DNA from: Shimia gijangensis
GTDB lineage: Bacteria; Pseudomonadota; Alphaproteobacteria; Rhodobacterales; Rhodobacteraceae
Length of the DNA: 64,000 nucleotides
Assembly: GCF_900142085.1 (NCBI RefSeq)
Contig: NZ_FQZQ01000010.1
Coordinates: forward strand, 1 to 64,000
Direction of reading: 5' to 3'
Positions 38,962-59,876 of the stretch are shown in pieces. A model generated the notes under the pieces. That model was not told the origin of the DNA. It did no database searches and worked only from the letters and a program-made list of their open reading frames with translations. The first letter of the stretch is position 1. Every line of letters starts with the position of its first letter. A program made the translations under genes and the position numbers.

Positions 38962-38985
38962 AATTGTTAATTTTGTAACTATCAA
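38962..38985. promoter_or_regulatory. MarR-like operator at dctP, matching the hmgA site
   Basis: TTGTT-N8-AACTA sits 39 bases before the dctP ATG. Aligned without gaps over 24 bases, 20 match the site at 59853-59876 between hmgA and its MarR gene. The arms are nearly palindromic, as expected for a MarR dimer. Confidence 0.6.
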
Positions 38986-39002
38986 CACTTTCGGTTCATA
39001 TT

Positions 39003-41036
39003 TCAAACCGCATCGGGGTTCGACGCGATGGTCCACGAGTTGGGGCTTTCTGCGTCCACCAACTGCATGAATTCTTTTGTTTTTCCCCAACCGATTTCGG
39101 TTGCATACTGCATGGGTCCGCCACGCCATCGTGGAAAACCGTAGCCGTGAATTTTTACAATGTCTACGTCGGCGTCACGCTCGGCAATGCCCTCTTCCAC
39201 GATTCGCGCGCCTTCATTCGCCAATACGGCCAACAGGCGTCCGGCGATCTCTTCGTTGGTGAACGCGCGGCGGGAAATCCCTTGTTTTGCAGAGTATTCC
39301 TCAATCATCGCTTCGACCAATGGGTCGCGCTGCGGGGTGCGATTACCTTCTTCATAGGCGTACCAACCCTTGCCACTGCGCTGGCCCAGACGGTCCATTT
39401 GGCACAATTGATCGCCGATAGTTACATAACGTTCGGCGGGGTCACGGGTTTCGGCCTGACGCTGACGATTGGCCCATGCAATCTGCAATCCGGTCAGATC
39501 CTGCATCTCATAAGGCCCCATCGGCAGGCCCATTTCGCGCATCGCTGCATCCACCTGATAGGGCAGCGCGCCATCGGCCAACAGGTAATCTGCCGCCCGG
39601 CGATAGGCCGCCAGCATCCGGTTTCCAATGAACCCATCACAAATGCCCGAAAGGACGGAGACCTTGCGCATCCGTTTGCCCAAGGCAAATCCCGTGGCCA
39701 GAACGCTTGCGTCCGTGTGCGGTGTCTTGACGATCTCCAACAGCTTCATGATGTGGGCTGGGCTGAAAAAATGCAGACCCAGACAGCGGTTTTGGTGCGC
39801 AACACCCTCGAATATCTCCATCGGATCAAGGTAGGATGTGTTGGTCGCCAGAATGGCATCCGGCGCCATCACAGCTGCAAGCTGGCGGAACACATCGCGT
39901 TTGACGTCGACGTTTTCAAACACCGCCTCAATCGCCAGCGGAATGTTCGCGGCCTCTGCGTAATCCCATACCGCCCGAAACGCCGCCTTGCGCGCCTTAA
40001 AAGTTTCTGGCGCCATCTTGCCCCGCTTTACCGCACCTTCCAAAAGGCCATGCACACGGGTCTCGGCCATCGCGGCCGCTTCGGCATCACGCTCGATGAG
40101 CGTCACAGACAGGCCGGCGTTCAACGCAGATGTGGCAATACCAGCCCCCATCAACCCACCGCCAACCACGGCAATATGGTTGATCTCACGCGGTGTTGCG
40201 CCTCTAATTGCATCCGGCTTGGCCACCATCCGTTCGGCAAAAAACGCATGCCGCAAAGCACGGCTCTCGGGCGAATGGCGCAGCTTCAGATGGCGCGCGC
40301 GTTCTTTGGGCTGGCCGATCTCAAAAGCCTCTGTGGCCCACTGCAGCGCCTCGAGGTTTTCCAACGGTGACGTCTGCCCCTTGGCGCGTTTGACCAAGGT
40401 GGCCCGCGCCGCTTCGATCAATTCGGCGTCAAAGGCGGGCACTTGGCGTTGACGCACAGCAACGGGCCGCTCGGGCAGGTTCTGGACAAAGTCCGCAATC
40501 GCCACCTCGAGGTTGTCCACCACTGCATCAACCGCACCAAGGCTGTGCATTTCCTCGGCCTTCAGGATTTTACCCGAACAGGCCACATCAATTGCAGCTT
40601 TCATGCCGATCAGTCGGGGCAGGCGTTGTGTGCCGCCCGCGCCGGGGATCAACCCAACATTCACTTCCGGCAGACCAAAGCCCGTGCCCTTGGCGGCAAT
40701 TCGCCACGCACAGCCCATAGCAATCTCGAGCCCGCCGCCCAGCACATTGCCATGCATCGCGGCCAAAAAAGGCACTTGGCTGTCTTCGATCAATTGCACG
40801 ACGTCGGGCAAATGCGGCTCGGCCGGGGGGGCGTCAAATTCTGACATGTCGCCACCGGCCACAAATGTGCGGCCTGCACAGGTCAGCACCGCCACACGTG
40901 CACCTTGCACCGCGGCCACCGCATCGGCCAACCCCTGGCGCACAGCCGTCGAGGTCGCATTGACCGGAGGATTGTTGATCTCGACCCGGGCCACATCGCC
41001 ATCAAAGGTCACCAAGACAGGGGACTGATCCGTCAT
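39003..41036 (-). CDS. Fused enoyl-CoA hydratase / 3-hydroxyacyl-CoA dehydrogenase
   Basis: This 677-residue FadJ-like fusion has an N-terminal crotonase domain with both catalytic glutamates (GGGLEIAMGC and GFGLPEVNVGLIPGAGGTQ) and a C-terminal dehydrogenase domain with the NAD motif VVGGGLMGAGIA and catalytic histidine in LGLHFFSPAHIMKLLEIV. In the phenylacetate pathway it would replace the separate PaaF hydratase and PaaH dehydrogenase of E. coli, neither of which is present here. The start at 41036 is by homology. It is divergent from paaG with a TetR-type site between. Confidence 0.9.
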   Translation of the reverse strand: MTDQSPVLVTFDGDVARVEINNPPVNATSTAVRQGLADAVAAVQGARVAVLTCAGRTFVAGGDMSEFDAPPAEPHLPDVVQLIEDSQVPFLAAMHGNVLGGGLEIAMGCAWRIAAKGTGFGLPEVNVGLIPGAGGTQRLPRLIGMKAAIDVACSGKILKAEEMHSLGAVDAVVDNLEVAIADFVQNLPERPVAVRQRQVPAFDAELIEAARATLVKRAKGQTSPLENLEALQWATEAFEIGQPKERARHLKLRHSPESRALRHAFFAERMVAKPDAIRGATPREINHIAVVGGGLMGAGIATSALNAGLSVTLIERDAEAAAMAETRVHGLLEGAVKRGKMAPETFKARKAAFRAVWDYAEAANIPLAIEAVFENVDVKRDVFRQLAAVMAPDAILATNTSYLDPMEIFEGVAHQNRCLGLHFFSPAHIMKLLEIVKTPHTDASVLATGFALGKRMRKVSVLSGICDGFIGNRMLAAYRRAADYLLADGALPYQVDAAMREMGLPMGPYEMQDLTGLQIAWANRQRQAETRDPAERYVTIGDQLCQMDRLGQRSGKGWYAYEEGNRTPQRDPLVEAMIEEYSAKQGISRRAFTNEEIAGRLLAVLANEGARIVEEGIAERDADVDIVKIHGYGFPRWRGGPMQYATEIGWGKTKEFMQLVDAESPNSWTIASNPDAV

Positions 41037-41082
41037 ATTCAAATATTCCGCACGTTGAGAATCAAACTTGCGGAGCTTTATT

Positions 41083-41098
41083 GACCAACCGTTCGGTT
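41083..41098. promoter_or_regulatory. TetR-type (PaaR-like) operator between the fadJ-like gene and paaG
   Basis: Read on the minus strand, AACCGAACGGTTGGTC matches the paaZ site at all but two of 16 positions. It lies 42 bases before paaG and 46 before the fadJ-like gene, so it could control both directions, including the TetR gene in the paaGIK transcript. Confidence 0.7.
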
Positions 41099-41140
41099 TA
41101 TGCAAGAACAACCTCGTAATTTTCGAACTTTGAGGCCGCT

Positions 41141-41926: not shown

Positions 41927-41928
41927 CC

Positions 41929-42354
41929 ATGACACCAAAGGAACGCGCAGACCGCTCTGCCGCTGCCATGTGGGCCGGTGACCGCGCCAGCCAGACCTTG
42001 GGCATGTCGATTGTCGAAATGGACGAAGGCCGCGCCGTGTTGCAAATGACCGTGCAGGAAAGCCACGCCAACGGCCACGCCATCTGCCACGGTGGCATCA
42101 CCTTTTCCCTGGCCGACAGCGCCTTTGCTTTTGCCTGCAACAGTCGCAATCAGTCGACTGTGGCCCAGCACAATATGATCAGCTATCTCGCCCCCGGCCG
42201 GGTTGGCGATGTACTCACCGCCACCGCGTCTGAGGTCAGCCTGACCGGACGCAGCGGCATCTATGACGTGACAGTGACCAAACAGGACGGTACCAAGATT
42301 GCAGAGTTTCGGGGCTTTTCCCGCGCAATCAAGGGCCAGCTTTTCGAAGAATAA
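41929..42354 (+). CDS. paaI: PaaI, hydroxyphenylacetyl-CoA thioesterase
   Basis: This 141-residue hotdog-fold thioesterase removes CoA from dead-end hydroxyphenylacetyl-CoA, rescuing CoA. The catalytic segment HAICHGGITFSLADSAFAFACN holds the HGG and aspartate of the family, and later TVAQHNMISYLAPGRVGDVLTATASEV matches PaaI. It follows paaG by two bases and precedes paaK by 17. Confidence 0.93.
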   Translation: MTPKERADRSAAAMWAGDRASQTLGMSIVEMDEGRAVLQMTVQESHANGHAICHGGITFSLADSAFAFACNSRNQSTVAQHNMISYLAPGRVGDVLTATASEVSLTGRSGIYDVTVTKQDGTKIAEFRGFSRAIKGQLFEE

Positions 42355-42371
42355 GTGTCGAGGAGGACGCG

Positions 42372-43682: not shown

Positions 43683-43685
43683 GTT

Positions 43686-44282
43686 TTGGCCCGCACAATC
43701 GCAAAAGACCACGACCAGAAGCGCGACCAGATTCTCAAGAATGCCGCCAAGGTGTTCGCCACAGAAGGTTATGATCGCGCATCCATGTCCATGCTTGCGC
43801 GCGAGTGCGGGATCTCCAAGGCCAATATCTACCACTATTACGACAGCAAGGACGCCTTGCTGTTTGATATCTTAGAGACCTATCTGCGCGAATTGCGCGA
43901 CGCCATCTGTGGCCTCAGCCTTGATGGGCTGGGCCCAGATGACAGGTTGCGGGGCGTGGTGGCGGTGACCCTGCAGGCCTATCAGGGCGCCGATCACGAA
44001 CATCAGGTTCAGATCGGCTCCATGTCAGCCTTGCCCGAGGATCAGCAGAAGCTGTTGCGCGGCTATCAGCGCGACATGGTGGTCTTTGTGAGTGACATTG
44101 TTGCGGCGCTGGATCCGGATACGTTTGCCCCTGATTCCAACAAGTTGCGCTCGGCGACCATGTCCGTATTTGGCATGCTGAACTGGTATTACATGTGGAA
44201 TTCCGGCGCCGGATCAGACGCCCGCGAAGACTATGCAGAGCTGGTCAGCAATCTGATCCTCGGCGGCGTTAAGACGCTTTAA
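43686..44282 (+). CDS. paaR: TetR-family regulator in the paa operon (PaaR-like)
   Basis: This 198-residue TetR-family regulator has the helix-turn-helix ILKNAAKVFATEGYDRASMSMLARECGISKANIYHYYDSKDALL at residues 17-60. The start is a TTG at 43686, four bases past the paaK stop, with AAGGAG five bases upstream. Its place after paaK and the palindromes at three paa promoters make it the likely repressor of the regulon, released by phenylacetyl-CoA. That is inferred; the family is certain. Confidence 0.85.
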   Translation: MARTIAKDHDQKRDQILKNAAKVFATEGYDRASMSMLARECGISKANIYHYYDSKDALLFDILETYLRELRDAICGLSLDGLGPDDRLRGVVAVTLQAYQGADHEHQVQIGSMSALPEDQQKLLRGYQRDMVVFVSDIVAALDPDTFAPDSNKLRSATMSVFGMLNWYYMWNSGAGSDAREDYAELVSNLILGGVKTL

Positions 44283-44800: not shown

Positions 44801-45331
44801 ATGACCAGTAAACAGCCTCTGGCAAAAATCTTACAGGATTATCAGCAAAACTGGCCCGACTTTGATCGTCCCGAAACCCGAGTGATGCTGGGGGTGATCC
44901 GGCTCAACGATCTGGTGTTTGAAAGCAGCAAAGCCTTGATTGCCGAATTTGGCCTGACCATGGCAGCCTTTGAGGCGCTGATGACATTGCGCGGCCAGCC
45001 TGAGCCGTGGCAAATGACCCCCACAGCCCTGTTGCAGGCCATCCTGATCACCTCGGGGGGGTTGACCAAAGTTCTGGGGCAACTTGAACAGGACGGTCTG
45101 ATTCAACGCATCGACAACCCCGACGATCAACGCAGCCGCTTTGTGCGTCTCACCCCCAAAGGCAAAACCCGCGCCGAGGCGTCGATGCAGGCTTTGGCGA
45201 CCCATGACAAAGACTTACTGGAACAGGCTTTGAACGAACAACAGATCACTCAGCTGTCGAAAGTATTGATGCGTACCGTGGACAAGCTGGAAAAGCACGA
45301 AGAGAGGGGCGAAAAAAGCGGGTCAAATTGA
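44801..45331 (+). CDS. MarR-family regulator
   Basis: This 176-residue winged-helix protein has the MarR layout (LGVIRLNDLVFESSKALIAEFGLTMAAFEALMTLRGQP, TPTALLQAILITSGGLTKVLGQLEQDGLIQRIDNPDDQRSRFVRLTPKG). The start at 44801 has GAAGGGAA upstream; the frame stays open far upstream but is antisense to the PACE gene there. It is divergent from PACE, with two operator-like sites between, so it is the likely repressor of that exporter. Confidence 0.85.
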   Translation: MTSKQPLAKILQDYQQNWPDFDRPETRVMLGVIRLNDLVFESSKALIAEFGLTMAAFEALMTLRGQPEPWQMTPTALLQAILITSGGLTKVLGQLEQDGLIQRIDNPDDQRSRFVRLTPKGKTRAEASMQALATHDKDLLEQALNEQQITQLSKVLMRTVDKLEKHEERGEKSGSN

Positions 45332-46569: not shown

Positions 46570-47328
46570 TCAGGCAGCCTTAAGGCCCAACCCATCCAGC
46601 ACTGATTTGGTTTCTGCTTCCCAGCGGGTTTTCAATTCGGCATTGGTCGACTTGCGCAAACCCATCGCCTTTAGGCTATCCGCTTTGGTCGAATCCGCTG
46701 CCCCAAAGGATGCCGCTACGCGCGGCCACCAGTAGTCAACGCTCGCCTGAAGGGCGGCGGTGTCGCCACTTTCGGCCAGTTTGGTCACACCTTCTGCGGC
46801 CAACTCCGCGTGGCGCGCTTCGACCGGGGCCACCGCGCGGAACGCTTCGGCCAACGGTTGATAAGACACCATTGAGAACTCGGCCATCTGTACTGCCACA
46901 GCGCGACCCATCAACAGGTTCATCACCACCGCATCGCTCCAGCCTTCCAGCGGATAGTTGAACACCGCCAGACGCATGTCGTGCTCGGTGCGTGACGCGC
47001 CAATGTCGGCGTCACGTCCCAAACGTGCGGTCCATGGGTGGTGGCTGGCATAGCGATCGCCGTCCACACCAAATTCGCCCATGATCTTCAACACACGGTC
47101 GGCATTATCAGTCTTTTCCAGAACAATTTTCGCCGCCGCGATGCGCTCCTTGATGCCGGGGCCTGCGTTGATGACGTCGGCAAAGCCTGCCGCGCCTGCC
47201 AGCTCACTGTCCACAAATGTGGTCATCAGCTTCATCAACTCGGCGCGATAGCGTGGCGGCACGTTGGTCGGATTTGTCAGCACGCCGCCCTGGGCGAGAT
47301 AGCTTTCAATGCTCATATCTTCAGCCAT
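46570..47328 (-). CDS. Extra PaaA/PaaC-like phenylacetate catabolic family protein
   Basis: This 252-residue protein belongs to the phenylacetic-acid catabolic (PaaA/PaaC ferritin-like) family but is neither PaaA nor PaaC, both of which are present. It has helices with possible metal ligands (FVDSELAGAAGFAD; VAVQMAEFSMVSYQPLAEAF; VEARHAELAAEG with an E-xx-H pattern). Whether it holds a diiron site cannot be settled by eye. It is last in the operon, 12 bases after paaE. It could be a further structural subunit or a related oxygenase. Confidence 0.75.
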   Translation of the reverse strand: MAEDMSIESYLAQGGVLTNPTNVPPRYRAELMKLMTTFVDSELAGAAGFADVINAGPGIKERIAAAKIVLEKTDNADRVLKIMGEFGVDGDRYASHHPWTARLGRDADIGASRTEHDMRLAVFNYPLEGWSDAVVMNLLMGRAVAVQMAEFSMVSYQPLAEAFRAVAPVEARHAELAAEGVTKLAESGDTAALQASVDYWWPRVAASFGAADSTKADSLKAMGLRKSTNAELKTRWEAETKSVLDGLGLKAA

Positions 47329-47340
47329 GATCAGGTCTCC

Positions 47341-48417
47341 TTACTGGTCAAAGTCGACAACAACGTTGTCTGTGACGGGATAGGACTGGCACGACAGGAC
47401 ATAGCCCTTTTCGACCTCGTAATCCTCAAGCGCGTGGTTGGCGACCATATCAACTTCGCCTTCGATCACGCGGCAGCGACAGGTCGAACACACACCCGCC
47501 TTACAGGCATAGGGCGCGTCCATTTTGTTGCCAATGGCGGCGTCCAGAATGCTGATGTCCTTGGGTGTTTCAATTGTCTGGGTTGACCCATCCAACGTGA
47601 TCACCGCAGTCGCCTGATTGGCGGCAGATGCCGCATCGGTCGACACAGCGCGTTTCTTGGCGCGGCCCGGTTGTGACGATGCAAACAGTTCAAACTTGAT
47701 CTGGCTGTCGTCCAATCCACCTGTGCGCAGGGCGGCTGCAATGCCCAGCATCATTGGTTCGGGGCCACAGATGAACGCGGTGTCGACGGATGTGATGTCG
47801 ATCCAGCCCGTGGCAAACAGTTGCGCACATTTTTCTTCCGTGACCAGACCTGTGAACAGGTCAATCTCCTGTGCGTCGGTTTCCAGAACATGGATCACAT
47901 TAAAGCGGCCCATATAGATGTTCTTGAGGTCTTCCAGCTCTTCGCGGAACATGATCGTGTTCACGCCCTTGTTGGCGTAAACCAAGGTGAATGTGCTGTC
48001 TGGCTCGGTCGCCAGCGTGGTTTTCAGGATCGACAGAACCGGCGTGATGCCTGACCCACCGGCAAAGCCGAGGTAGTTCTTTTCGTTGCCTGCATCGAGC
48101 GCTGTGAAAAAGCCACCCATCGGCGGCATCGCTTGCAGCGTGTCTCCGACGTTCAGGTCTTCATTGGCCCAGGTTGAGAACGCACCGCCGTCGACACGTT
48201 TGATGCCAACTTGCAGAATGCCTTCGTCCTTGCCAGCACAGATCGAATAGGACCGGCGCAATTCGTCTCCGTCAAAATCCTGGCGGAAGGTCAGGTATTG
48301 GCCTTGGGTAAAGTCAAATTCCTCAGCCGCGCCATTGACGGGCTTGAGGGTCACGACAACGGCGTCGCGAATGGTCTTGTGGATATCGGTAACTTCCAGA
48401 TCGTGAAAGCGTGCCAT
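47341..48417 (-). CDS. paaE: PaaE, reductase of phenylacetyl-CoA epoxidase
   Basis: This 358-residue flavoprotein passes electrons from NADPH to the diiron subunit. It has the FAD-binding RRSYSICAG segment near residue 56, the NAD-binding GGSGITPVLSIL and CGPEPMM motifs, and a C-terminal plant-type [2Fe-2S] cluster (CKAGVCSTCRCRV plus a final C in LSCQSYP). The start at 48417 has GGAGGAACC upstream. It follows paaD by 22 bases. Confidence 0.95.
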   Translation of the reverse strand: MARFHDLEVTDIHKTIRDAVVVTLKPVNGAAEEFDFTQGQYLTFRQDFDGDELRRSYSICAGKDEGILQVGIKRVDGGAFSTWANEDLNVGDTLQAMPPMGGFFTALDAGNEKNYLGFAGGSGITPVLSILKTTLATEPDSTFTLVYANKGVNTIMFREELEDLKNIYMGRFNVIHVLETDAQEIDLFTGLVTEEKCAQLFATGWIDITSVDTAFICGPEPMMLGIAAALRTGGLDDSQIKFELFASSQPGRAKKRAVSTDAASAANQATAVITLDGSTQTIETPKDISILDAAIGNKMDAPYACKAGVCSTCRCRVIEGEVDMVANHALEDYEVEKGYVLSCQSYPVTDNVVVDFDQ

Positions 48418-48439
48418 AGTGGTTCCTCCCTTAAGCGCG

Positions 48440-48901
48440 TCAGATGCACTTGAAGTATTCAAAGGGTTCAAGACAGTCCTGGCAGCGCCATTGTGCCTTG
48501 CACGGGGTCGAGCCGAACTGGCTCAGTTTTTCTAGGTGGTCGCCACCGCATCGGGGGCAGCGTTTGGGCCCGCCCGCCGCTTGCGGTGGGGCGATCCCGT
48601 ATTTCTCCAAAGCGTCGCGGGCTTTGTCAGACATCCAGTCAGTGGTCCACGCCGGGCTAAGCTGTTGCTTGAGTTCGATTTTCTCGAGCCCGCAGTCACG
48701 CAGCTTGGTCTCAATGTCCATGTTGATCATCGAGGTTGCCGGACAGCCGGAATAGGTGGGCGTGACAGCAACGACGCAAGTGTCGCCCTGCCATTCCACA
48801 TTCCGGATGATGCCAAGATCGATGAGGCTAATCACCGGGATCTCGGGGTCAGGAATGGTTTCCAGCCATTCCCAGACCTGTTCCACCGAAGGATTGCTCA
48901 T
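48440..48901 (-). CDS. paaD: PaaD, epoxidase maturation factor
   Basis: This 153-residue protein has the N-terminal MIP18/DUF59 domain (WLETIPDPEIPVISLIDLGIIRNVEW, GCPATSMIN) and a C-terminal zinc-ribbon-like cysteine set (CPRCGGDHLEKLSQFGSTPCKAQWRCQDC). PaaD is needed to load the iron-sulfur cluster of PaaE. It sits six bases after paaC. Confidence 0.94.
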   Translation of the reverse strand: MSNPSVEQVWEWLETIPDPEIPVISLIDLGIIRNVEWQGDTCVVAVTPTYSGCPATSMINMDIETKLRDCGLEKIELKQQLSPAWTTDWMSDKARDALEKYGIAPPQAAGGPKRCPRCGGDHLEKLSQFGSTPCKAQWRCQDCLEPFEYFKCI

Positions 48902-48907
48902 GGGTCT

Positions 48908-49672: not shown

Positions 49673-49956
49673 TACATGCTTCCCACTTCTTCTGGGATGT
49701 CAAAGAACGTTGGGTGACGGTAGATCTTTGATTCCGATGGTTCGAACAGTGGGCCTTTGTCGCCCGGTGCGGTTGCCGAAATGTGTTTGGCTTCCACCAC
49801 CCAGATCGACACGCCTTCGTTGCGGCGGGTGTAAACATCGCGCGCATTTTTGACAGCCATTTCGGCGTCAGGGGCGTGCAGCGAACCGACGTGACGGTGG
49901 CTCATGCCATGCTGACCGCGGATGAAGATTTCCCAGAGGGGCCATTCGTTTTTCAT
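49672..49956 (-). CDS. paaB: PaaB, epoxidase subunit
   Basis: This 94-residue protein begins MKNEWPLWEIFIRGQHGMSH and has GSLHAPDAEMAVKNARDVYTRRNEGVSIWVV, the PaaB signature. PaaB bridges two PaaAC heterodimers in the complex. A GAGGAGG site precedes the ATG. Confidence 0.95.
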   Translation of the reverse strand: MKNEWPLWEIFIRGQHGMSHRHVGSLHAPDAEMAVKNARDVYTRRNEGVSIWVVEAKHISATAPGDKGPLFEPSESKIYRHPTFFDIPEEVGSM

Positions 49957-49979
49957 AATCTCATTCCTCCTCGAGATTT

Positions 49980-50972
49980 TTATTCAGCTGCAACTTTGGC
50001 AGCGGCTTTTTTCTGTGCGTGGGCCATCAGACCATCGCGCACCCATTCACCATCGTCCCAAGCCGCGACGCGGTCTTTCAGACGATCAACGTTGCAAGGG
50101 CCATTGCCCTTGATGACGTCAAAGAATTCTGACCAATCGGGATCCGAGAAATCATAGTGGCCACGCTCTTCGTTCCACTTGATGCCTGCGTCTGGCAGAT
50201 CGAGACCCAGATATTCAATTTGAGGCACGGTCTGGTCGACAAATTGCTGACGCAACTCGTCGTTCGATTTGACTTTGATCTTCCAGGCCATCGACTGATC
50301 CGAGTTGGTCGAATCCGCGTCCGTGGGGCCAAACATCATGATTGCAGGGAACCACAAACGATCCACAGCGCTTTGCGCCTGACGTTTCTGTTCGGGCGTG
50401 CCAAAGGCCATGTTCATGATCGCGTGATACCCCTGTCGGGCGTGAAAGCTTTCTTCTTTACAGATGCGGATCATCGCGCGGCTGTAGGGGCCGTAAGATG
50501 TCCGTTGCAGGGCGACCTGGTTCACAATGGCCGCGCCATCCACCAGCCACCCAACGGCACCAATATCGGCCCAGTTCAGTGTGGGGTAGTTAAAGATCGA
50601 CGAGTATTTCATCCGCCCTTCGTGCAGCAAACGCACCAACTCGTCGCGGCTCTCGCCCAGCGTTTCGGCGGCGGAATAGAGATACAGACCGTGGCCTGCC
50701 TCGTCCTGCACTTTGGCCAGCAGGATCGCTTTGCGCTCAAGCGTGGGCGCACGGGTGATCCAGTTGCCCTCTGGCAGTTGGCCGACGACCTCAGAGTGCG
50801 CATGCTGACCCATTTGGCGGATCAGCGTGCGGCGATAATCATCCGGCATCCAATCCCGAGGTTCGATCTTGATGTCATTGTCGATTTTGTCCTGAAACTC
50901 ACGTTCCTGTTCCGACATCTCTTCACGAGATTTGATGCCAGAGCGGGCCGTTTTGATGAGCTGTGCATACAT
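49980..50972 (-). CDS. paaA: PaaA, catalytic diiron subunit of phenylacetyl-CoA epoxidase
   Basis: This 330-residue subunit carries the diiron centre that epoxidises the ring of phenylacetyl-CoA. Metal-binding helices are visible as [21 protein letters not shown] and [18 protein letters not shown]. The start at 50972 ([19 protein letters not shown]) has GGAGGAGACC upstream and matches the family. It follows the thiolase gene by 16 bases. Confidence 0.96.
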
Positions 50973-50988
50973 TAGCAGGTCTCCTCCC

Positions 50989-52191
50989 TTAAACGCGTTC
51001 GATAATGATGGCGGCACCCTGGCCGACACCGACGCACATGGTGCACAGCGCATAGCGCCCACCGGTGCGTTGCAATTGATAAGCGGCCGTCAGCACCAGC
51101 CGCGCGCCGGACATGCCCAGCGGGTGACCGATGGCAATCGCGCCACCATTAGGATTTACATGGGGTGCGTTGTCCGCAACGCCAAGCTCGCGCAAGGTCG
51201 CCAGACCCTGAGACGCAAACGCTTCGTTCAGTTCTATCACATCCATCTGATCGATGCTGAGACCGGCGCGCGCCAGAACCTTGCGGCTGGCTGGCACCGG
51301 GCCGATGCCCATAATGCGCGGCTCCACGCCCGCTGTCGACATGCCAACAATCCGCGCCATTGGTTTCAGACCGTTTTTGGCAGCCGCGGCCTCGTTGGCC
51401 AGCAAGATCGCCGCGGCACCGTCATTCACGCCAGACGCGTTGCCTGCCGTCACGGTCTTGTCAGCGCCGTTTACGCCCTTCAAACCAGATAGCTTTTCAG
51501 CCGAAGTGCCGGGGCGGGGATGTTCATCTGTATCCACAATCACAGGATCACCCTTACGCTGTGCAACAGAAACAGGCGTGATCTCATCCTTAAAGACACC
51601 CGCCTCATGCGCAGCCGCCCAACGGGCTTGGCTGGTGGCGGCAAAGGCGTCCTGATCGGCACGATTGATGTTGTAATCCTCGGCGACATTGTCAGCCGTC
51701 TGCGGCATCGAATCCGTGCCGTACATCTCGTGCATCTTTTTGTTGGTAAAGCGCCAGCCGATGGTGGTGTCATAGACCGCATTCGCGCGGGTAAAGGCGC
51801 TGGTGGCTTTGGGCATCACAAACGGCGCGCGGCTCATGCTTTCGACACCGCCCGCGATGGCCATGTCATAGTCACCCGCCTTGATCCCGCGTGACGCCAT
51901 GCCGACAGCATCCATACCGCTGGCGCACAGTCGGTTTACGGTTGTGCCCGGAACGTCCACTGGCAGACCGGCGAGCAACGCTGCCATACGTGCGACGTTA
52001 CGATTGCTTTCGCCTGCTTGGTTGGCGTCGCCGTAGATCACATCATCAATGCTGGCCCAATCCACCTGCGGATTACGCTCGATCAGGGCCGCAATAGGAA
52101 GCGCGGCGAGGTCGTCAGTTCGGATCGAAGAAAGCGCGCCGCCGTATCGCCCAATCGGGGTCCGGGTTGCGTCGCAGATGAATGCATCCAT
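50989..52191 (-). CDS. paaJ: 3-oxoadipyl-CoA / 3-oxo-5,6-didehydrosuberyl-CoA thiolase
   Basis: This 400-residue thiolase performs both thiolytic steps of the phenylacetate pathway. The nucleophilic cysteine is in [15 protein letters not shown] (about residue 90), the histidine in [19 protein letters not shown], and the second cysteine in [10 protein letters not shown]. It heads the thiolase-paaABCDE operon, in place of its usual position elsewhere in E. coli. The start at 52191 is by homology. A TetR-type operator lies 47 bases upstream. Confidence 0.93.
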
Positions 52192-52237
52192 GGGTGTCTG
52201 CCTTTGGTTAGTATCCTGTTCATCGGCAAAATTAGCC

Positions 52238-52253
52238 GACCGCATGGTCGGGA
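52238..52253. promoter_or_regulatory. TetR-type (PaaR-like) operator at the thiolase-paaABCDE promoter
   Basis: CCGACC-GCAT-GGTCGG is a palindrome covering this span. Aligned on ACCG-N6-CGG it shares 12 of 14 core positions with the paaZ site. It is 47 bases upstream of the thiolase ATG. Confidence 0.6.
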
Positions 52254-52446
52254 TAGGGTGGATTGCGATTCGTTGCAAGAAAAATGTTACACAAATTCAC
52301 TAAATCTGAAAAACTGGTAACTCAATGGCGTAAAAAATCACTTTTGGGGTTTTGTGCAAACCGGAGAGTCTGCCAAAAAAATTTGTACAAAACGGACAAA
52401 CCGCACCCTTGGCGCAGTTCATTACAATTTGAAACAAACTTGATGT

Positions 52447-53085
52447 TTAGGCCGGTTTGACGGCGTCCGGATAGGCTGCGGCAAAGGCCGGATGTTCACC
52501 ACAAGCGGCCTCGACTTTCTGAATGCGCGGGCAATCCGAGAAATCCACACCCCAGCGATGGGCATTATACAGTTGCGGCATCAAACAGACATCTGCCAGC
52601 GACGGTGTATCCCCGCAGCAGAACGGCGTTTGCTCAAATTCCGCCAACAGAGTTTCAAAAGCCCGCAGCCCGGTTGGGATGAAATGCTTCATCCAGTCGA
52701 CCTTGGCCTCGGGGACCTCAGGCAACAGCCGCGAGACATGGCCAACGACGCCCAGATTGCACACCGGATGCACGTCTACGGCGACAGAATGGGCCAGCGC
52801 TTTGACTTTGGTGGCCTCGGCGGGATCCTTGGGAGAAAGGCCTAATCCTCTGGTTTCATTCAGGTAATCCAGAATGGCCAGAGATTGCGTAAAGCTGTGG
52901 CCGTCGATTTCAAGAACCGGTACCAACCCTTGCGGATTGCGCGCCAGATGCTCTGCCGACCTGTGATCACCTTTGACAAGATCCACCGAAATGGCCTGAT
53001 ATTCGATCCCGGCAAGGTTCATCGCGATGCGCAAACGATAGCTCGCCGACGAGCGCCAATAGTCATAAAGGATCGTGTCAGTCAT
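52447..53085 (-). CDS. maiA: Maleylacetoacetate isomerase
   Basis: This 212-residue zeta-class glutathione transferase isomerises maleylacetoacetate to fumarylacetoacetate. The active-site loop reads YWRSSASYRLRIAMN, with alanine where many family members have cysteine. NPQGLVPVLEIDG and QSLAILDYLNE form the glutathione site. It lies downstream of the VOC gene but past a terminator, so it may have its own promoter or be expressed by read-through. Confidence 0.92.
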   Translation of the reverse strand: MTDTILYDYWRSSASYRLRIAMNLAGIEYQAISVDLVKGDHRSAEHLARNPQGLVPVLEIDGHSFTQSLAILDYLNETRGLGLSPKDPAEATKVKALAHSVAVDVHPVCNLGVVGHVSRLLPEVPEAKVDWMKHFIPTGLRAFETLLAEFEQTPFCCGDTPSLADVCLMPQLYNAHRWGVDFSDCPRIQKVEAACGEHPAFAAAYPDAVKPA

Positions 53086-53131: not shown

Positions 53132-53165
53132 CTTGATCTTATCGCAATTTAGTTGCGAAGTTAAC

Positions 53166-53705
53166 TTATTTCTTCAACTCTTTGGCGTGCAGCCAATCAG
53201 CGTGCTTGGGGGCTTTCTTGGTCTGTGACCATTCTTCCAGCATGTCCCACTTAACCGAGTCCATGCGCTTCAACATGGCTTCTTCCTCGGGGTCCGGACA
53301 GGCCAGTTCCACGCGGTGACCATTGGGATCAAAGAAGTAAATCGAGTGGAAGATCGAGTGGTCTGTGACACCAAGAACGTCAACGCCATTGGCAACCAGA
53401 TGATCACGGAATTCGATCAGTGTGTCGCGATCTTTTACTTTGAAAGCAATATGTTGCACCCAGATTGGGGTGTTTGGATCACGACCCATTTCAGCTTTTG
53501 TAGGCAGTTCAAAGAACGCCAGAACGTTGCCGTTACCCGCATCCATAAAGATATGCATGTAGGGATCCGGCTCGTGGGTTGAAGGCACGTGATCTTCTGC
53601 GATGGCCAGAACAAAGTCCATGTTCAGCATCTTGTTGTACCATTCAACGGTCTCTTTGGCGTCTTTACAGCGATAAGCGACGTGGTGAATTTGTTCGATT
53701 TTCAT
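53166..53705 (-). CDS. VOC-superfamily protein
   Basis: This 179-residue protein has the vicinal-oxygen-chelate fold with likely metal ligands in IEQIHHVAYRCKDAK, WVQHIAFKV and FFDPNGHRVELACP. Family members include ring-cleavage dioxygenases, isomerases and glyoxalases. Here it lies in the homogentisate operon, five bases after the DUF2783 gene, so it probably acts on an aromatic or ring-cleavage product. The exact reaction is not evident. GAGGAG precedes the ATG. Confidence 0.8.
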   Translation of the reverse strand: MKIEQIHHVAYRCKDAKETVEWYNKMLNMDFVLAIAEDHVPSTHEPDPYMHIFMDAGNGNVLAFFELPTKAEMGRDPNTPIWVQHIAFKVKDRDTLIEFRDHLVANGVDVLGVTDHSIFHSIYFFDPNGHRVELACPDPEEEAMLKRMDSVKWDMLEEWSQTKKAPKHADWLHAKELKK

Positions 53706-53710: not shown

Positions 53711-53914
53711 TTACTCCTCGGATTTCAACGCGGCAGCTGCCAGCGCCTGAGACAGGATCACGCGATCCCCAATGTGATTTGCCAACACCAGAACAAGGCG
53801 CGCGTTTAGCGCGTCACTGTCGGCTTTGGACAGACCTTCGTGGGCGGTCAGCAGTTCAGCGTAGAAATCATCTGCGCCAGCGATGTTTGGGGTCAGGGTT
53901 AGTTGATCAGACAT
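53711..53914 (-). CDS. DUF2783 small protein, likely partner of the flavin hydroxylase
   Basis: This 67-residue protein (MSDQLTLTPNIAGADDFYAELLTAHEGLSKADSDALNARL) belongs to DUF2783. It starts six bases after the stop of the flavin monooxygenase, whose last codons carry its AAGGAG ribosome binding site. A GTG nine bases earlier is less likely. In Pseudomonas putida U a small protein, MhaB, couples with flavoprotein MhaA in 3-hydroxyphenylacetate 6-hydroxylase. This pair has the same layout and size relation. The match of DUF2783 to MhaB is my inference. Confidence 0.75.
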   Translation of the reverse strand: MSDQLTLTPNIAGADDFYAELLTAHEGLSKADSDALNARLVLVLANHIGDRVILSQALAAAALKSEE

Positions 53915-53919: not shown

Positions 53920-55530
53920 TCACTCCTTACCAATGGCGCGGCGGATCGCTGCGCGGATGAGATTGTCGTCATAGCTCGGGCGACGTGCCGCCACGTGCTG
54001 GTCAGGACGGATCAGATAAACACCGGCTTCGGCGCCCCCAAGGAACCGCTCTTTCAGCATTTGCGACGGATCGTTTTTGGTCGACAAAGCCAACCGGGTC
54101 ACGGTGATGCCGCTCTCCTCGATTTCGTCAGGCGCATCTGCATCGATGGTCAGCAACGTGAACTTGTCACCCAGCTTGGGCAGCAAGAAATCGTCACCAA
54201 GAGGCACGTCCGGACAAGGCGATCCGGGCCGTGTACGCGCCGGCCCATCCAATGCATCAGCCGAGTTCAGTGGAGAGCCATCATAGGTGCAAGGTACTGA
54301 CAAACGGCCAGAATTCACCAAAGGACGGGCAAATGCATGTACTTCGCTAAGGTCCAGAACCGCATCGCGCAGCACCCGGCTCATCTCGGATTTTGGCGTG
54401 ATGAAGTCGGTCGAGCGCGACGAGTTCATGATGTTCTCATCCGCGCCGTGGATACGTTCGTAGTCATAGCTGTCCAACAGCGATTCCGGCGCTGTGCCAT
54501 CCATGATCAGTTTCAGTTTCCAGCACAGGTTGTCGGTATCTTGCAGACCCGAGTTTGCCCCACGTGCACCAAACGGAGAGACCTGGTGGGCTGCGTCGCC
54601 GGCAAAGATCACGCGGCCTTGGCGGAAGGTTTCCATGCGGCGGCATTGGAAGGTGTAGATCGAAACCCATTCCAGTTCGAACTGAACATCGTCGCCCAGC
54701 ATCGCCTTGAGGCGCGGGATGACATTTTCGGGTTTCTTTTCTTCTTCTTTGTCGATGTCCCAACCCAGTTGCAGGTCGATGCGCCAAACGCCGTCGGGCT
54801 GTTTGTGCAGCAATGCCGACTGGCCTTTGTTAAAGGGCGGATCGAACCAGAACCAACGTTCGGTTGGGAATTCTGCGTCCATGATCACATCAGCAATCAG
54901 GAAGTTGTCCTCAAAGATACGACCAACAAAGTCGAGCCCCATCATCGCGCGGATCGGCGAGGTCGCGCCATCACAGGCTACCAGCCAGTCGGCTTCCAGC
55001 GTGTATTGGCCTTCAGGCGTGTCGACCAGAACGCTGGCATGATCACCGTGCTCTTCGACCTTCAGAACCTTGTTGCGACCGCGGATTTCGATTGGCGCGC
55101 CTTCAGCTTGCAACTCGCGGACACGGTTCACCATGTACTCTTCGAAATAGTATTGCTGCAGGTTGATAAAGGCGGGGAATTCGTGGCCGCCCTCGGGCAG
55201 CAGATCGAACTGATAAACCTGACGTTCGTCAAAGAATACCTTGCCGATGTTCCATTCAACGCCCTTATCGACCATGGGTTTGCCACAGCCCAGACGATCC
55301 AGAATTTCCAACGGGCGCTTGGCGTAGCACACGGCGCGGCTGCCAAAGCTGACTTTGTCGTTGTCGTCAAGAATGACAACTTCGATGCCCTGCTGGGCAA
55401 AGTCGATGGCGGCCCCAAGGCCAATCGGGCCAGCGCCCACCACGACCACCTTGCGGCGGACGGGTGTGTCGGCGTCCTGATCCGGGCTACGCTCGTAAGC
55501 ATATAGCGGGATTTCGAAAATTTTGTTCAT
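53920..55530 (-). CDS. FAD-dependent aromatic hydroxylase (MhaA-like)
   Basis: This 536-residue class A flavin monooxygenase has the FAD motif VVVGAGPIGLGAAID (G32-x-G34-x2-G37), the DG-type segment LVACDGATSPIRAMMG, and the FAD-binding GRVIFAGDAAHQVSPFGARGANSGLQD. It resembles 3-hydroxyphenylpropionate- and 3-hydroxyphenylacetate-type hydroxylases. With the DUF2783 protein directly behind it and hmgA in the same cluster, 6-hydroxylation of 3-hydroxyphenylacetate to homogentisate is the best guess. The substrate is inferred, not read from residues. Confidence 0.85.
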   Translation of the reverse strand: MNKIFEIPLYAYERSPDQDADTPVRRKVVVVGAGPIGLGAAIDFAQQGIEVVILDDNDKVSFGSRAVCYAKRPLEILDRLGCGKPMVDKGVEWNIGKVFFDERQVYQFDLLPEGGHEFPAFINLQQYYFEEYMVNRVRELQAEGAPIEIRGRNKVLKVEEHGDHASVLVDTPEGQYTLEADWLVACDGATSPIRAMMGLDFVGRIFEDNFLIADVIMDAEFPTERWFWFDPPFNKGQSALLHKQPDGVWRIDLQLGWDIDKEEEKKPENVIPRLKAMLGDDVQFELEWVSIYTFQCRRMETFRQGRVIFAGDAAHQVSPFGARGANSGLQDTDNLCWKLKLIMDGTAPESLLDSYDYERIHGADENIMNSSRSTDFITPKSEMSRVLRDAVLDLSEVHAFARPLVNSGRLSVPCTYDGSPLNSADALDGPARTRPGSPCPDVPLGDDFLLPKLGDKFTLLTIDADAPDEIEESGITVTRLALSTKNDPSQMLKERFLGGAEAGVYLIRPDQHVAARRPSYDDNLIRAAIRRAIGKE

Positions 55531-55683: not shown

Positions 55684-56634
55684 TTAGCCCTGCAAAGCCG
55701 CCCACATGTCCAGATCGCGTTGCGCGGTCCAGATGCGGGGGGTGTCGATGCCACGCGCTTCGTCATAGGCGCGGGCAACGTTGAACGGCAGGCAGTGTTC
55801 GTAGATGGCGTAATCTTTGAACTTAGGATCACAGCTTTCGCGGACGGCGTCCCATGCTTCTTTCAAAGACCCACCGCGCGCGGCCACTTTGGCGGCGGGC
55901 AGATAGGTGCTTTCCACGAAATCGCGGGTGCTTTCGATGGCGCGTTCCACGGCGTCTTTACCAACCAGTGCGCCGCCACGTCCGGGCGCGATGGCGTCGA
56001 CGTCAAAGGCGGCGATGTTGTCGAGCGTGTTACCCCAGTCACCAAAGTGGCCGTCGCCACAATAGCAGGCCGAGTGGTCTTCGACGATGTCACCGGTGAA
56101 CATGACGTTCTGGTCCGGCACGTGGATGACGATGTCACCGGCAGTGTGGGCGCGGCCCAGATGCATCAGGTCAACGCGACGGTTGCCCAGATAGACTGTC
56201 ATGTCGTCGCTGAAGGTGGTGGTGGGCCAAGTCAGGCCGGGGATCGACTCATGGCCTTCGAACAGACGTGGGAAGCGTTGGAATTCACTGTCCCAGTCTT
56301 CCTGACCGCGCTCCACAACCATCGAGCGCGCAGTATCGCCCATGATGATCTGGCTGGCGCCAAAGGCCGAGGCCCCCAGCACGCGCACGGCGTGATAGTG
56401 GGTCAGAACCACGTGGCTGATCGGCTTGTCGGTGACTGTGCGAACACATTCGATGACTTTGTTGGCCAGCCGTGGTGTGGCTTGCGCCTCGATGATCATT
56501 ACACTGTCGTCGCCAATGATGACGCCCGAGTTCGGGTCGCCCTCGGCGGTAAAGGCATAGAGACCTTCGCCGATTTCGTCGAACGTGATTTTCTTTTCAG
56601 ACATGTCCCCTTGGGACGCAAATGCTTTTGCCAT
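55684..56634 (-). CDS. MBL-fold metallohydrolase with a degenerate metal motif
   Basis: This 316-residue protein has a metallo-beta-lactamase fold (GVIIGDDSVMIIEAQAT, VVLTHYHAVRVLGASAFGA, HLGRAHTAGDIVIHVP, VMFTGDIVEDH). The usual HxHxDH reads H79-Y-H81-A-V-R, so the aspartate and third histidine are replaced by V83 and R84, while the later H and D remain. It may bind one metal. The ATG at 56634 has AAGGAA upstream; a second ATG ten codons in is possible. It lies four bases after the RibD-like gene in the homogentisate operon. Its substrate is unknown. Confidence 0.82.
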   Translation of the reverse strand: MAKAFASQGDMSEKKITFDEIGEGLYAFTAEGDPNSGVIIGDDSVMIIEAQATPRLANKVIECVRTVTDKPISHVVLTHYHAVRVLGASAFGASQIIMGDTARSMVVERGQEDWDSEFQRFPRLFEGHESIPGLTWPTTTFSDDMTVYLGNRRVDLMHLGRAHTAGDIVIHVPDQNVMFTGDIVEDHSACYCGDGHFGDWGNTLDNIAAFDVDAIAPGRGGALVGKDAVERAIESTRDFVESTYLPAAKVAARGGSLKEAWDAVRESCDPKFKDYAIYEHCLPFNVARAYDEARGIDTPRIWTAQRDLDMWAALQG

Positions 56635-56638
56635 GTGT

Positions 56639-57175
56639 TTATTCCTTGATCGCGTAGTCGAGTTTCATAATGCCGCCAGGCATTTCTGTACTGGCGGTGA
56701 GAGAGAGGTTGTGTTGTTTGCCGGGGGCGAAGCAAGGCAGCCCGTCACCAAGCAATGTGGGCATGACAAACACTTGCAGGTTGTCGAACATACCGTTGTC
56801 CAGCGCCGCGCGTTGGGTTTCGCCGCCACCCATGATCCAGATGTGGCGATGCCCGTTTGCCTCAATCGCTGTGCGAAGGGCGGTGATGTCACCGGCAGCA
56901 GTCACGTTGTCGCCGGTAAAATCCATTTGACGAGTCAGCACATAGCCCGCGCGGGCCTCATAGGGCCAACCCCACCCCATAACCTGTTCGTAAGTGGCCC
57001 GCCCCATGACAAGTGCATCGATCGGGCCGATGAAATCGCCATAGCCGCCGTCATCGCCAGCCTCACCAAGGGCGGCATTGAACGGATCAAGCCATTCAAC
57101 GCTGCCATTGGCATCGGCAATGAACCCATCAAGGCTCATGGCGATATAGCCGGCATATGTGGGGCGGGTGCTCAA
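56639..57175 (-). CDS. RibD/dihydrofolate-reductase-like oxidoreductase
   Basis: This 178-residue protein has the RibD C-terminal/DHFR-like fold: YIAMSLDGFIADANGSVEWLDPF, IDALVMGRATYEQVMGWGWPY, IWIMGGGETQRAALDNGMFDNLQVFVMPTLLGDG. These small enzymes use NADPH, but few have known substrates. The likely start is TTG at 57175, four bases past the fahA stop, with AAGG upstream. It sits between fahA and the MBL gene in one operon, so it may repair or reduce a pathway by-product; that is conjecture. Confidence 0.78.
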   Translation of the reverse strand: MSTRPTYAGYIAMSLDGFIADANGSVEWLDPFNAALGEAGDDGGYGDFIGPIDALVMGRATYEQVMGWGWPYEARAGYVLTRQMDFTGDNVTAAGDITALRTAIEANGHRHIWIMGGGETQRAALDNGMFDNLQVFVMPTLLGDGLPCFAPGKQHNLSLTASTEMPGGIMKLDYAIKE

Positions 57176-57179
57176 TGCC

Positions 57180-58442
57180 TTAACCTTTTGCCGGCCATGC
57201 CACGGAGGGCAGAATTTTGCCCACGCAGTCGCCAAAGCCGATGGTGAAGCCATCGCCACGAGCATTGCCGCGCAGTGTGAGCGTGTCGCCGTCTTCGATG
57301 AAGCCGCGGGTCTCGCCTGTATCAAGCGTGAAAGGCTCGCGCCCGGCCCAGCTCATTTCCATGAGTGAGCCGAATTCGGTCTTGGTTGGCCCCGAGATCG
57401 TGCCCGATCCCAACAGATCGCCGACATTCATGGCACAGCCACCAATGGCGTGATGGCAAAGTTGCTCAGCTGCCGAATAATACATACGGCTGTAGTTGGT
57501 CTCGCCAATAACGCTGGCTTTTTCGGCCCCTTCGGGCTGCATCAGAACCTGAAGTTCAATGTCATAAAGACCATCTTTGGAGCCATCGAGGTAGGGCAGC
57601 AATTCCTTTTCGCGCTCAGGTGTGGGCGCACGGAACGCTTCCAACGCGGCAGCTGTGACGATCCACGGGCTGATCGAGGTGCCAAAGGCTTTGCCTTGGA
57701 ACGGACCCAGCGGCTGATACTCCCAGCCTTGAATGTCGCGTGCGGACCAGTCGTTCAGCAAAACGTAGCCAAAGATCATGTCATCCGCCTGATCCACCGT
57801 GATGGGTTGGCCAAACTCGGACGGCGTGCCGACGATGGCACCCATTTCCAATTCGATGTCCAAACGCATAGACGGGCCAAACGACGGCATGTCTGCGTCT
57901 GGCGCTTTGCGCTGGCCGTTGGGGCGGTGAATGTCGGTGCCCGAGATCACAACCGAAGACGCACGGCCATTGTAACCGATTGGAATGTGCAGCCAGTTGG
58001 CTGGCAGATCAGGCGAGCCACGCAGGATCGCACCCATGTTTTTGGCGTGCTGCATGCCGGCGTAGAAATCGGTGTATTCGCTGACAACAATTGGCATGTG
58101 CAATTCAGCATCGGCCATCGGCACCAGCAGAGGCTCAACTTTGTCCTGATCGGCGCTGCCTTCGGCGAGCATTTCGTTCAGACGGGCACGCAGTTCATTC
58201 CAGGCGTCGCTGCCCAGATCCATAAACTCGTTCCAGTAAGGCGCGTCGAAGACTTCGATGTCAGACACTTTGACCAGACCGGCCTCTTCGGCGGCGGCCA
58301 TGTCGAGGATCATGTCGCCAATGGCTACACCACAGCGCTCTTCTGTGCCGTCGGTCGAGAACACGCCATACGGCAGGTTGTTCAGGGGGAAAGGGTGGTT
58401 GGCATCATTGGCCGAAGCCACCCAAGATTTCATCAAAGACAT
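57180..58442 (-). CDS. fahA: Fumarylacetoacetase
   Basis: This 420-residue hydrolase splits fumarylacetoacetate into fumarate and acetoacetate, ending tyrosine/homogentisate breakdown. Hallmarks are VVSEYTDFYAGMQHAKNMG, FGPSMRLDIELEMGAIVG, NDWSARDIQGWEYQPLGPFQGKAF and GDLLGSGTISGP. The start at 58442 has AAGGAAA upstream. It follows hmgA by 11 bases. Confidence 0.95.
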   Translation of the reverse strand: MSLMKSWVASANDANHPFPLNNLPYGVFSTDGTEERCGVAIGDMILDMAAAEEAGLVKVSDIEVFDAPYWNEFMDLGSDAWNELRARLNEMLAEGSADQDKVEPLLVPMADAELHMPIVVSEYTDFYAGMQHAKNMGAILRGSPDLPANWLHIPIGYNGRASSVVISGTDIHRPNGQRKAPDADMPSFGPSMRLDIELEMGAIVGTPSEFGQPITVDQADDMIFGYVLLNDWSARDIQGWEYQPLGPFQGKAFGTSISPWIVTAAALEAFRAPTPEREKELLPYLDGSKDGLYDIELQVLMQPEGAEKASVIGETNYSRMYYSAAEQLCHHAIGGCAMNVGDLLGSGTISGPTKTEFGSLMEMSWAGREPFTLDTGETRGFIEDGDTLTLRGNARGDGFTIGFGDCVGKILPSVAWPAKG

Positions 58443-58453
58443 ATTTGTTTTCC

Positions 58454-59815
58454 TTACTTCTTGCCCGGAGTGCCATCGAATTTCTTTTCGATGTCCGACC
58501 AACAATCAATGTAATCATCCTGTAGCGGTGCTTCATCTGCGGCAAATGCGGTCAGATGCTGCGGAAAGCGGGTTTCGAACATGAAGGACATGGTGTTGTC
58601 CAACTTATCCGGGCCCAGATTGGCGTTCGACGCACCTTCAAAGGCGTTCTTGTCAGGACCATGTGGCAGCATCATGTTGTGCAGGGACAGGCCGCCGGGG
58701 ATGAACCCTTTGGGTTTGGCGTCGTACTGACCATAGATGTTGCCCATCAGCTCGGACATGATGTTCTTATGATACCACGGTGGGCGGAATGTGTCTTCGG
58801 CGACCATCCAACGTTCGCGAAACAGCACGAAATCGATGTTGGCCGTACCCGGCTGGCCCGAAGGCGCGGTCAGCACAGTAAAGATCGAGGGATCCGGGTG
58901 GTCAAACAGGATCGCGCCGACCGGGCAATAGGTGCGCAGGTCGTACTTCACGGGTGCATAGTTGCCGTGCCACGCCACCACGTCCAGCGGCGACTGGCCG
59001 ATTTCTGTTTTGTGGAACTGGCCGCACCATTTGACGGTCACGGTCGAGGGCACTTCGCGGTCTTCATAGGCCGCCACGGGCGCTTTGAAGTCGCGCGGGT
59101 TGGCCATGCAGTTGGCCCCAATCGGCCCACGGCCAGGCAATTCAAACTTCTGACCATAGTTTTCGCAGACAAAGCCGCGCGCAGGTCCTTCCAGAACCTC
59201 AACGCGATACAGCAGCCCACGCGGGATAATGGCGATTTCTTTTGGCTCTAAGTCAATGATTCCCAGCTCGGTCGAAAAGCGCAGAACGCCCTCTTGCGGA
59301 ACTACCAGCAGTTCGGAATCAGCTGAGAAGAAATAGTCATCCTCCATCGACTCGTTGACCAGATAGATATGTGTGGCCATGCCCACTTGGGTGTTTACAT
59401 CCCCTGCTGTGGTCATGGTGTACATGCCATTGATCCAATTCAGCGCCTCATCCGAATGGGGCACCGGATCCCAACGATACTGACCAAGACTGGTCACATC
59501 AGGGTCAACATTCGGTGCCGATTTCCAATGTGGCACGTCGATCTTTTCGTAACGATGCGAGTGCTTCACCGACGGGCGGATGCGATAGCACCATGTGCGT
59601 TCGTTCTGGTGGCTGGGGGCAGTAAACGCCGTGCCCGAAAGCTGCTCGCCGTAAAGGCCATAGTTGCATTTCTGGGGAGAGTTCATGCCTTGGGGCAGGG
59701 CGCCCGGCAGAACCTCGGATTCATAGTCATTGCCAAAACCGGGCATATAGCCTTCATGCGGGCCTGTCATAGAGGGGGCCATTTGCATGCGGGTCGGAAC
59801 AGTATGTTTGGTCAT
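58454..59815 (-). CDS. hmgA: Homogentisate 1,2-dioxygenase
   Basis: This non-haem iron dioxygenase cleaves homogentisate to maleylacetoacetate. At 453 aa it is full length, with the iron-binding region [19 protein letters not shown] and landmarks [25 protein letters not shown] and [20 protein letters not shown]. It heads the minus-strand homogentisate operon. The 79-base divergent region to the MarR gene carries the operator at 59853. Confidence 0.96.
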
Positions 59816-59852
59816 TTTCGCGCGCTCCTGTTGAGAAACTAGTTGCTTTATT

Positions 59853-59876
59853 AATAGTTCTTTTTGTAACTAACAA
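59853..59876. promoter_or_regulatory. MarR-type operator between hmgA and its regulator
   Basis: TAGTT-N8-AACTA (59855-59872) has perfect 5-base arms and lies 18 bases before the MarR ATG and 38 before hmgA. A close relative occurs at 38962-38985 before dctP. A weaker TAGTT-N8-AACTT is at 53150-53167, near maiA. Confidence 0.65.

Follow-up and report, generated by a model that had tools for sequence, protein, structure and literature searches.

A predicted MarR operator links a TRAP transporter operon to a homogentisate operon in Shimia gijangensis

Gene content of the locus

The 64,000-nucleotide stretch of Shimia gijangensis DNA analyzed here (contig NZ_FQZQ01000010.1; the whole stretch is referred to below as the window) encodes a tripartite ATP-independent periplasmic (TRAP) transporter operon that begins with dctP, and an operon for homogentisate breakdown that is divergent from a gene for a MarR-type regulator (marR). 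Two copies of one putative operator occur in the window, one upstream of dctP and one between hmgA and marR. Control of both operons by the single MarR protein (59895-60332) is well supported in silico. The whole reading, to which we assign a probability of about 75%, is that this local MarR would bind both sites and couple import of an aryl-acetate-type acid to homogentisate breakdown, with a cytochrome P450 as an accessory.

Features of the dctP side are the following.

38961..38985, minus strand: operator upstream of dctP (TTGATAGTTACAAAATTAACAATTA), predicted MarR operator, 36.5 bits, 1 mismatch to the refined motif
37903..38925, minus strand: dctP, TRAP solute-binding protein, aromatic-acid type (PF03480, 6.6e-23; nearest by Foldseek to 4p56 and TarP)
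37308..37814, minus strand: dctQ (PF04290, 1.3e-13)
35959..37311, minus strand: dctM (PF06808, 9.2e-94)
34772..36007, minus strand: cytochrome P450, accessory (PF00067, 1e-28); the open reading frame (ORF) overlaps dctM and the start is likely at 35959
32617..34683, minus strand: paaZ, directly after the P450 gene (TIGR02278, 3.1e-294)

The order on the minus strand is a fadJ-like gene, the site, dctP, dctQ, dctM, the P450 gene and paaZ, and the site falls in the 77-bp gap between the fadJ-like gene (same strand) and dctP. Judged by spacing alone, paaZ is probably within the dctP transcription unit. Running divergent from the fadJ-like gene are paaG, paaI, paaK and a TetR gene (43686-44282), with a second MarR gene (44801-45331) beyond. 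The interval 46570-52278 contains the genes for a phenylacetate ring oxygenase and a thiolase gene.

Features of the hmg side are the following.

59852..59876, no strand assigned: operator between hmgA and marR (TTGTTAGTTACAAAAAGAACTATTA on the minus strand), predicted MarR operator, 41.8 bits, 0 mismatches
59895..60332, plus strand: marR, 145 aa, proposed repressor of both operons (Pfam MarR_2, 9.5e-16)
58454..59815, minus strand: hmgA, homogentisate 1,2-dioxygenase (NCBIfam TIGR01015, 9.8e-196, above cut-off)
57180..58505, minus strand: fahA, fumarylacetoacetase (TIGR01266, 1.6e-152); an ORF whose true start is probably internal
56639..57325, minus strand: RibD_C/DHFR-like gene (PF01872, 3e-12); ORF start uncertain
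55684..56634, minus strand: metallo-beta-lactamase (MBL)-fold hydrolase gene (PF00753, 1.3e-11)
53920..55530, minus strand: mhaA-like FAD monooxygenase, candidate 3-hydroxyphenylacetate 6-hydroxylase flavoprotein (NF006002, 7.4e-238, above cut-off)
53711..53914, minus strand: mhaB-like small gene, 67 aa, DUF2783 (PF10932, 6.1e-27)
53166..53705, minus strand: vicinal oxygen chelate (VOC)-superfamily gene (PF00903, 2.9e-16)
52447..53085, minus strand: maiA, maleylacetoacetate isomerase (TIGR01262, 4e-71)

From hmgA to maiA the genes follow one another in the order listed, divergent from marR. The MarR protein has a winged-helix domain (PF12802, 58.2 bits, cut-off 27; PF01047, 44.6 bits, cut-off 24.6), and the FAD monooxygenase also matches PF01494 (3e-57). 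On both sides the limits of the operons are predicted from spacing. The VOC gene is 75-93% identical across the compared relatives. The MBL-fold gene is ~78-93% identical and adjoins mha or hmg genes there. Among the compared loci, tblastn matches to the RibD_C/DHFR-like gene inside the hmg operon are confined to G100, G038 and G210 (G codes denote family genomes, L codes fetched loci, and G000 is the genome of the window).

Sequence of the two sites

The earlier note on this DNA described the two sites as aligning without gaps at 20 of 24 positions, and the letters at 38962-38985 (AATTGTTAATTTTGTAACTATCAA) and 59853-59876 (AATAGTTCTTTTTGTAACTAACAA) bear this out (20/24 identical). The hmg 24-mer has no further match of at least 17 positions in the window, and its top match in 40 Markov-shuffled windows was 18. 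A weight matrix of 29 columns was built from 28 marR-upstream sites of other genomes (29 were fetched; L030 lacks the site and was dropped). Scanning the window with this matrix gave 41.8 bits at 59850-59878 and 36.5 bits at 38959-38987, with third place at -3.2; the maximum in 60 Markov windows was 12.4 bits. A near-match at 53150-53167, at the end of the VOC gene, was dropped, as it scores -5.9 bits by the matrix (53144-53172).

The motif TAGTT-N8-AACTA, as first put forward, is too weak alone. With 2 mismatches it has 10 matches, compared with 5.8 expected (not significant alone), and the relaxed short motif has 21 among the matches listed in the genome. The refined 25-mer (TTGWTRGTTACAAAANNAACYATTA, at most 3 mismatches) has exactly two matches in the 4,094,570-base genome, which are the two sites, and its reversed control has none there at the same tolerance. 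This 25-mer was composed after the sites and the orthologues were known, and the matrix is the fairer test. At other places the genome has three TAGTT-N8-AACTA palindromes that are perfect but have a different core and do not satisfy the refined motif. They are of the type TAGTTTA-N4-TAAACTA (G000:C42:53531, C62:2225 and C67:192475), and may belong to another regulator of this organism.

Each site had also been placed at a promoter. A promoter-like hexamer pair does overlap each site, one apiece, although these are consensus matches only. The second site lies between the divergent hmgA and marR.

Conservation of the sites and of MarR

The site is present in 47 of 149 family genomes, and lies directly upstream of the marR orthologue in 28 of the 29 loci fetched from other genomes (all but L030). 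Across 394 family genomes it occurs in 121 (144 matches, counted from the listing), compared with 2 matches for the reversed control. Orthologues of dctP (E 1e-140 or better; 68-100% identical) are found in 25 of the 394 genomes, one of which has two copies. The site is directly upstream of dctP in ten: G000, G100, G073, G038, G043, G031, G228, G389, G110 and G282, which carry ten different genus codes. Thirteen of the 25 have no site anywhere. The dctP site is thus present in 10 of the 12 dctP genomes with the operator elsewhere and in 0 of the 13 without it (Fisher p 2e-5, ignoring kinship). The MarR protein is at least 62% identical to that of the window in exactly the ten genomes with a dctP site, and in the thirteen site-free genomes it is at most 50% identical or has no match at E 1e-15. 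A tree of 26 rows has 5 changes for the site and 5 for MarR; the row closest to the window by dctP and dctM is G100, at 93%.

A second, named set overlaps the 25 genomes. It comprises 79 dctP loci kept of 89 relatives. Most belong to Rhodobacteraceae, Shimia and Ruegeria among them, and some to other Alphaproteobacteria or to Gammaproteobacteria. The matrix scores fall at 18.7-39.8 for 34 of these loci and at or below 3.3 for the other 45, and in all 34 high-scoring loci the motif starts 61-75 nt before the dctP match. Sites, conservation, co-occurrence with MarR and accompanying genes are all computed results.

Operator types and recognition helices

The gene hmgA is present in 22 of the 25 dctP genomes (G306, G363 and G110 have no match at E 1e-20). 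Among the thirteen site-free genomes, 11 have hmgA, with another MarR homologue (29-50% identical) in the fetched hmg regions, and most of their hmgA upstream regions contain a repeat of the type CGTTGCAAATGCAACG. Seven genomes have DKSK in the MarR recognition helix; upstream of their hmgA lies GTTGCA-N2-TGCAAC in six and GTTTCAAATGCAAC in the seventh (G270). The helix reads EKSK in G086, EKTK in G350 and EKPR in G197. Where the operators are of the GTTAC type, the MarRs have HKTK. Also with HKTK are G139, where the marR region lacks the site and hmgA has it, and G305, where relaxed GGTTAC repeats precede hmgA and fahA. Across these genomes operator type and recognition helix change together. 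That operator type follows the helix, along with the 10/12 and 0/13 genome counts, supports the earlier proposal that one MarR would control both operons.

In G197 (L126, L275) the hmg-mha cluster directly adjoins the TRAP-P450-paa locus. Its MarR is only 29% identical and its operator is of another type, which recurs before its dctP (18/22, rank 1 of 26, with operators picked by eye). In a test without such picking, on 11 genomes with another MarR/operator type, the genome's own dctP came first of 23 in G197 and tied first in G270 and G350.

Several results weigh against a regulon of this composition. In the unpicked test the own dctP was not first in 8 of the 11 genomes, and therefore the predicted operator-dctP link is lineage-specific, not universal. 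G089 and G139 have the operator elsewhere (MarR 56-58% identical) yet no dctP site. In G210, the one other genome from the genus of the window, an hmg-type site is present but no dctP of this kind passes the cut-off, and G110 has both sites together with mha, fahA, maiA and marR but no hmgA match. Only three supported independent contrasts are available on the tree; 2.5 agree on average and none oppose, which is too few for significance. The MarR homologue is several kb from hmgA in G036, G270 and G267, and there it may not be the regulator of hmgA; in G305 it is beside fahA on another contig. Finally, the assignment of the FAD monooxygenase and the DUF2783 protein as a putative MhaAB pair is drawn from family, pairing and size.

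Other genes behind the operator

The company of the operator was surveyed in 60 fetched loci. In six genomes (L106-L111; 2-3 mismatches) the gene behind it is a VOC gene standing alone, and in three (L116, L117, L119) it precedes units whose mha genes are separate from hmgA. In three others (L105, L112, L113; 3 mismatches) it precedes dctP of a different TRAP transporter, ~30% identical, which in L105 and L112 (G075, G340) adjoins a fumarylacetoacetate-hydrolase-family gene. G089 (L118, L119) has two such MarR genes, of which one neighbours hmgA-fahA-maiA and the other MBL-mhaAB; both are accompanied by an operator of their own. In L157 (G110), fahA occupies the place of hmgA beside marR, and the MBL gene, mha genes, VOC gene and maiA are present with the operator.

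Candidate substrate of the transporter and possible route to homogentisate

An AlphaFold2 model of DctP (mean pLDDT 89.5) has 4p56 as its top Foldseek match (TM 0.88), followed by TarP with coumarate and cinnamate and then by marine aromatic-acid binders. Rows 1-21 comprise 4p56, TarP_Sse, TarP_Csal, the marine aromatic-acid binders and 5im2 (the listed titles of 4p56 and 5im2 end before the ligand), and row 24 is TarP with 4-hydroxyphenylacetate. Sialic-acid proteins appear from row 28 on. By fold, DctP is thus nearer to aromatic-acid than to sialic-acid TRAP binding proteins.

A 67-aa DUF2783 gene adjoins the FAD monooxygenase gene. In Pseudomonas putida U, the accessible portion of PMC3053370 describes MhaA (566 aa) and MhaB (60 aa), which convert 3-hydroxyphenylacetate to homogentisate, and this is the source of the MhaB size used here. 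The same portion reports that in Burkholderia xenovorans LB400 the MhaAB counterpart adjoins hmg genes, and the word MarR does not occur in that paper. Because the hmg operon holds an MhaAB-like pair, conversion of a hydroxyphenylacetate to homogentisate by that pair is plausible. This part of the earlier note is thus supported in part, by the MhaA-like and MhaB-size genes and by the position of DctP nearest to aromatic-acid binders, while remaining a prediction.

The regulon could instead serve tyrosine degradation only, with the importer taking up an acid derived from tyrosine (4-hydroxyphenylpyruvate, for example, or homogentisate). The genes hmgA, fahA and maiA do form the classical tyrosine route, and 4-hydroxyphenylpyruvate dioxygenase (HPPD) genes score above cut-off in 19 of the 25 dctP genomes, including 10 of the 12 with the operator. 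However, no operator site is near HPPD in those 10 genomes (the nearest on one contig is ~2 Mb off, in G073), whereas in the loci fetched from genomes with the site, mha genes are part of units that carry the operator. In G100, which has the whole regulon, HPPD gave no match at E 1e-30. We therefore consider a purely tyrosine-directed regulon unlikely. Because the operator accompanies mha genes and not HPPD, and because of G100, we read the regulon as one for an aryl acetate entering homogentisate.

Role of the cytochrome P450

The earlier note had gone further, proposing that the transporter and the P450 together supply a compound (taken here as phenylacetate hydroxylated by the P450) that becomes homogentisate, by an oxygenase route running beside the paa route. 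The P450 ORF overlaps dctM, the gene is behind the operator in the window, G100 and G043, and the MhaAB-like genes could take 3-hydroxyphenylacetate onward. But P450 is commoner without the site: it is found in 3 of 10 dctP loci with the site (seven lack it) and in 9 of 16 without. Among the named loci it occurs in 9/34 with and 15/45 without the site; restricted to loci with dctP at least 70% identical and paaZ, the count without the site becomes 14/24, as against 9/34 (Fisher p 0.028 with kinship left out of account, and opposite in direction to the model). A tie between P450 and operator was rejected on these counts, which also indicate that the P450 is not what the operator was kept for. 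The P450 is thus probably not an essential part of the regulon and does not stand as the needed supplier, although where present it may act on the same compounds. Its best PDB relatives are mixed P450s. The gene after the P450 is paaZ, which belongs to the coenzyme A (CoA) route, and the operator thus apparently bears on both routes instead of keeping them apart. A P450-fed route is not supported as a general feature. The P450-supply model in its full form is improbable.

A restricted variant concerns lineages with the full set (the window together with some of its relatives in Shimia and Ruegeria, and also G197, where the parts are contiguous under another operator type). There, MarR might govern a bacterial counterpart of the fungal aryl-acetate route, in which the TRAP transporter would import phenylacetate, the P450 would form 3-hydroxyphenylacetate and MhaAB would yield homogentisate, so that the cell could switch its substrate between the CoA-epoxide and CoA-free oxygenase routes. 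We regard this as speculative, with odds well below even.

Identity of the regulator

The dctP site might belong to another regulator of the paa locus, and both the second MarR gene and the TetR gene are near dctP. However, the dctP site resembles the hmgA-marR site itself, and there is no third motif copy at the second MarR or TetR gene. Within the fetched flanks, a homologue of the second MarR (at least 42% identical) is found in only 1 of 9 other site-bearing dctP loci (G100) and in two site-free ones (G298, G086), and the TetR gene occurs both with and without the site. Control by either is quite improbable. That the likeness of the two sites reflects chance or common promoter sequence, as their AT-rich composition and overlap with promoter-like hexamers might suggest, can be dismissed, being contradicted by conservation at dctP in ten genomes of ten genus codes, by the matrix and genome-wide scans, by the 394-genome counts and by the 61-75 nt spacing.

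Proposed regulon

We infer binding, repression, operon limits, effector and substrate from the sequences, as follows. The MarR protein would bind a 25-bp imperfect inverted repeat at 59852-59876 and there control itself and hmgA-fahA-(RibD-like)-MBL-mhaA-mhaB-VOC-maiA. At the copy at 38961-38985 it would control dctPQM-(P450)-paaZ. Its release would be triggered by an aromatic effector, for which homogentisate and 3-hydroxyphenylacetate are the likeliest candidates. High-affinity import of an aryl-acetate-type acid would then be followed by conversion to homogentisate by MhaAB and by ring cleavage by HmgA, MaiA and FahA. The P450 would be an accessory gene carried in the operon in some lineages.

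If correct, this scheme defines a compact candidate regulon with clear limits in a family of marine bacteria, comprising an importer, a hydroxylase pair, ring-cleavage genes and a repressor. It offers a genomic handle on the aromatic acids that are imported in this family, and it points to a pathway in which three uncharacterised genes found with the operator (VOC, MBL and DUF2783) may act. The relatives also form a natural series of operators and recognition helices that vary together.

Comparison with known systems

Among the matches listed in a search of titles and abstracts (open-licence PubMed Central papers only), no report of the operator link was found. In the portions of these papers available to us, a phenylacetate transporter is inferred for Ruegeria pomeroyi grown in co-culture with a diatom (PMC8027193), and PaaK is merely listed (PMC4103551).

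The putative hydroxylase pair resembles MhaAB, as described in the accessible text, by family, gene pairing and size: the FAD monooxygenase is 536 aa (560-566 in MhaA proteins), its partner 67 aa (60 in MhaB), and both are beside hmg genes. The pair was set beside the characterised protein by description only. The modelled DctP likewise resembles the binding proteins of TarPQM-type TRAP transporters, matching TarP with coumarate, cinnamate, ferulate, caffeate and 4-hydroxyphenylacetate, although it is only 20-32% identical to TarP proteins and 36% to 4p56.

Among regulators, HmgS is a MarR-family protein predicted for hmgAB in Alteromonadales (PMC5343134). As far as the available part of that paper describes it, HmgS shares with the MarR of the window its family, local control of homogentisate genes and prediction by comparative genomics; it differs in belonging to Gammaproteobacteria and in being linked to hmgAB alone, with no transporter or mhaAB mentioned there (compared by description only). 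HmgR of Pseudomonas putida, an IclR-family protein, is described in the excerpts available as repressing hmgABC, with homogentisate as the anti-repressor. By analogy, the MarR of the window would also be a repressor beside hmg genes that a pathway compound releases, but it is of another protein family and its proposed regulon includes an importer.

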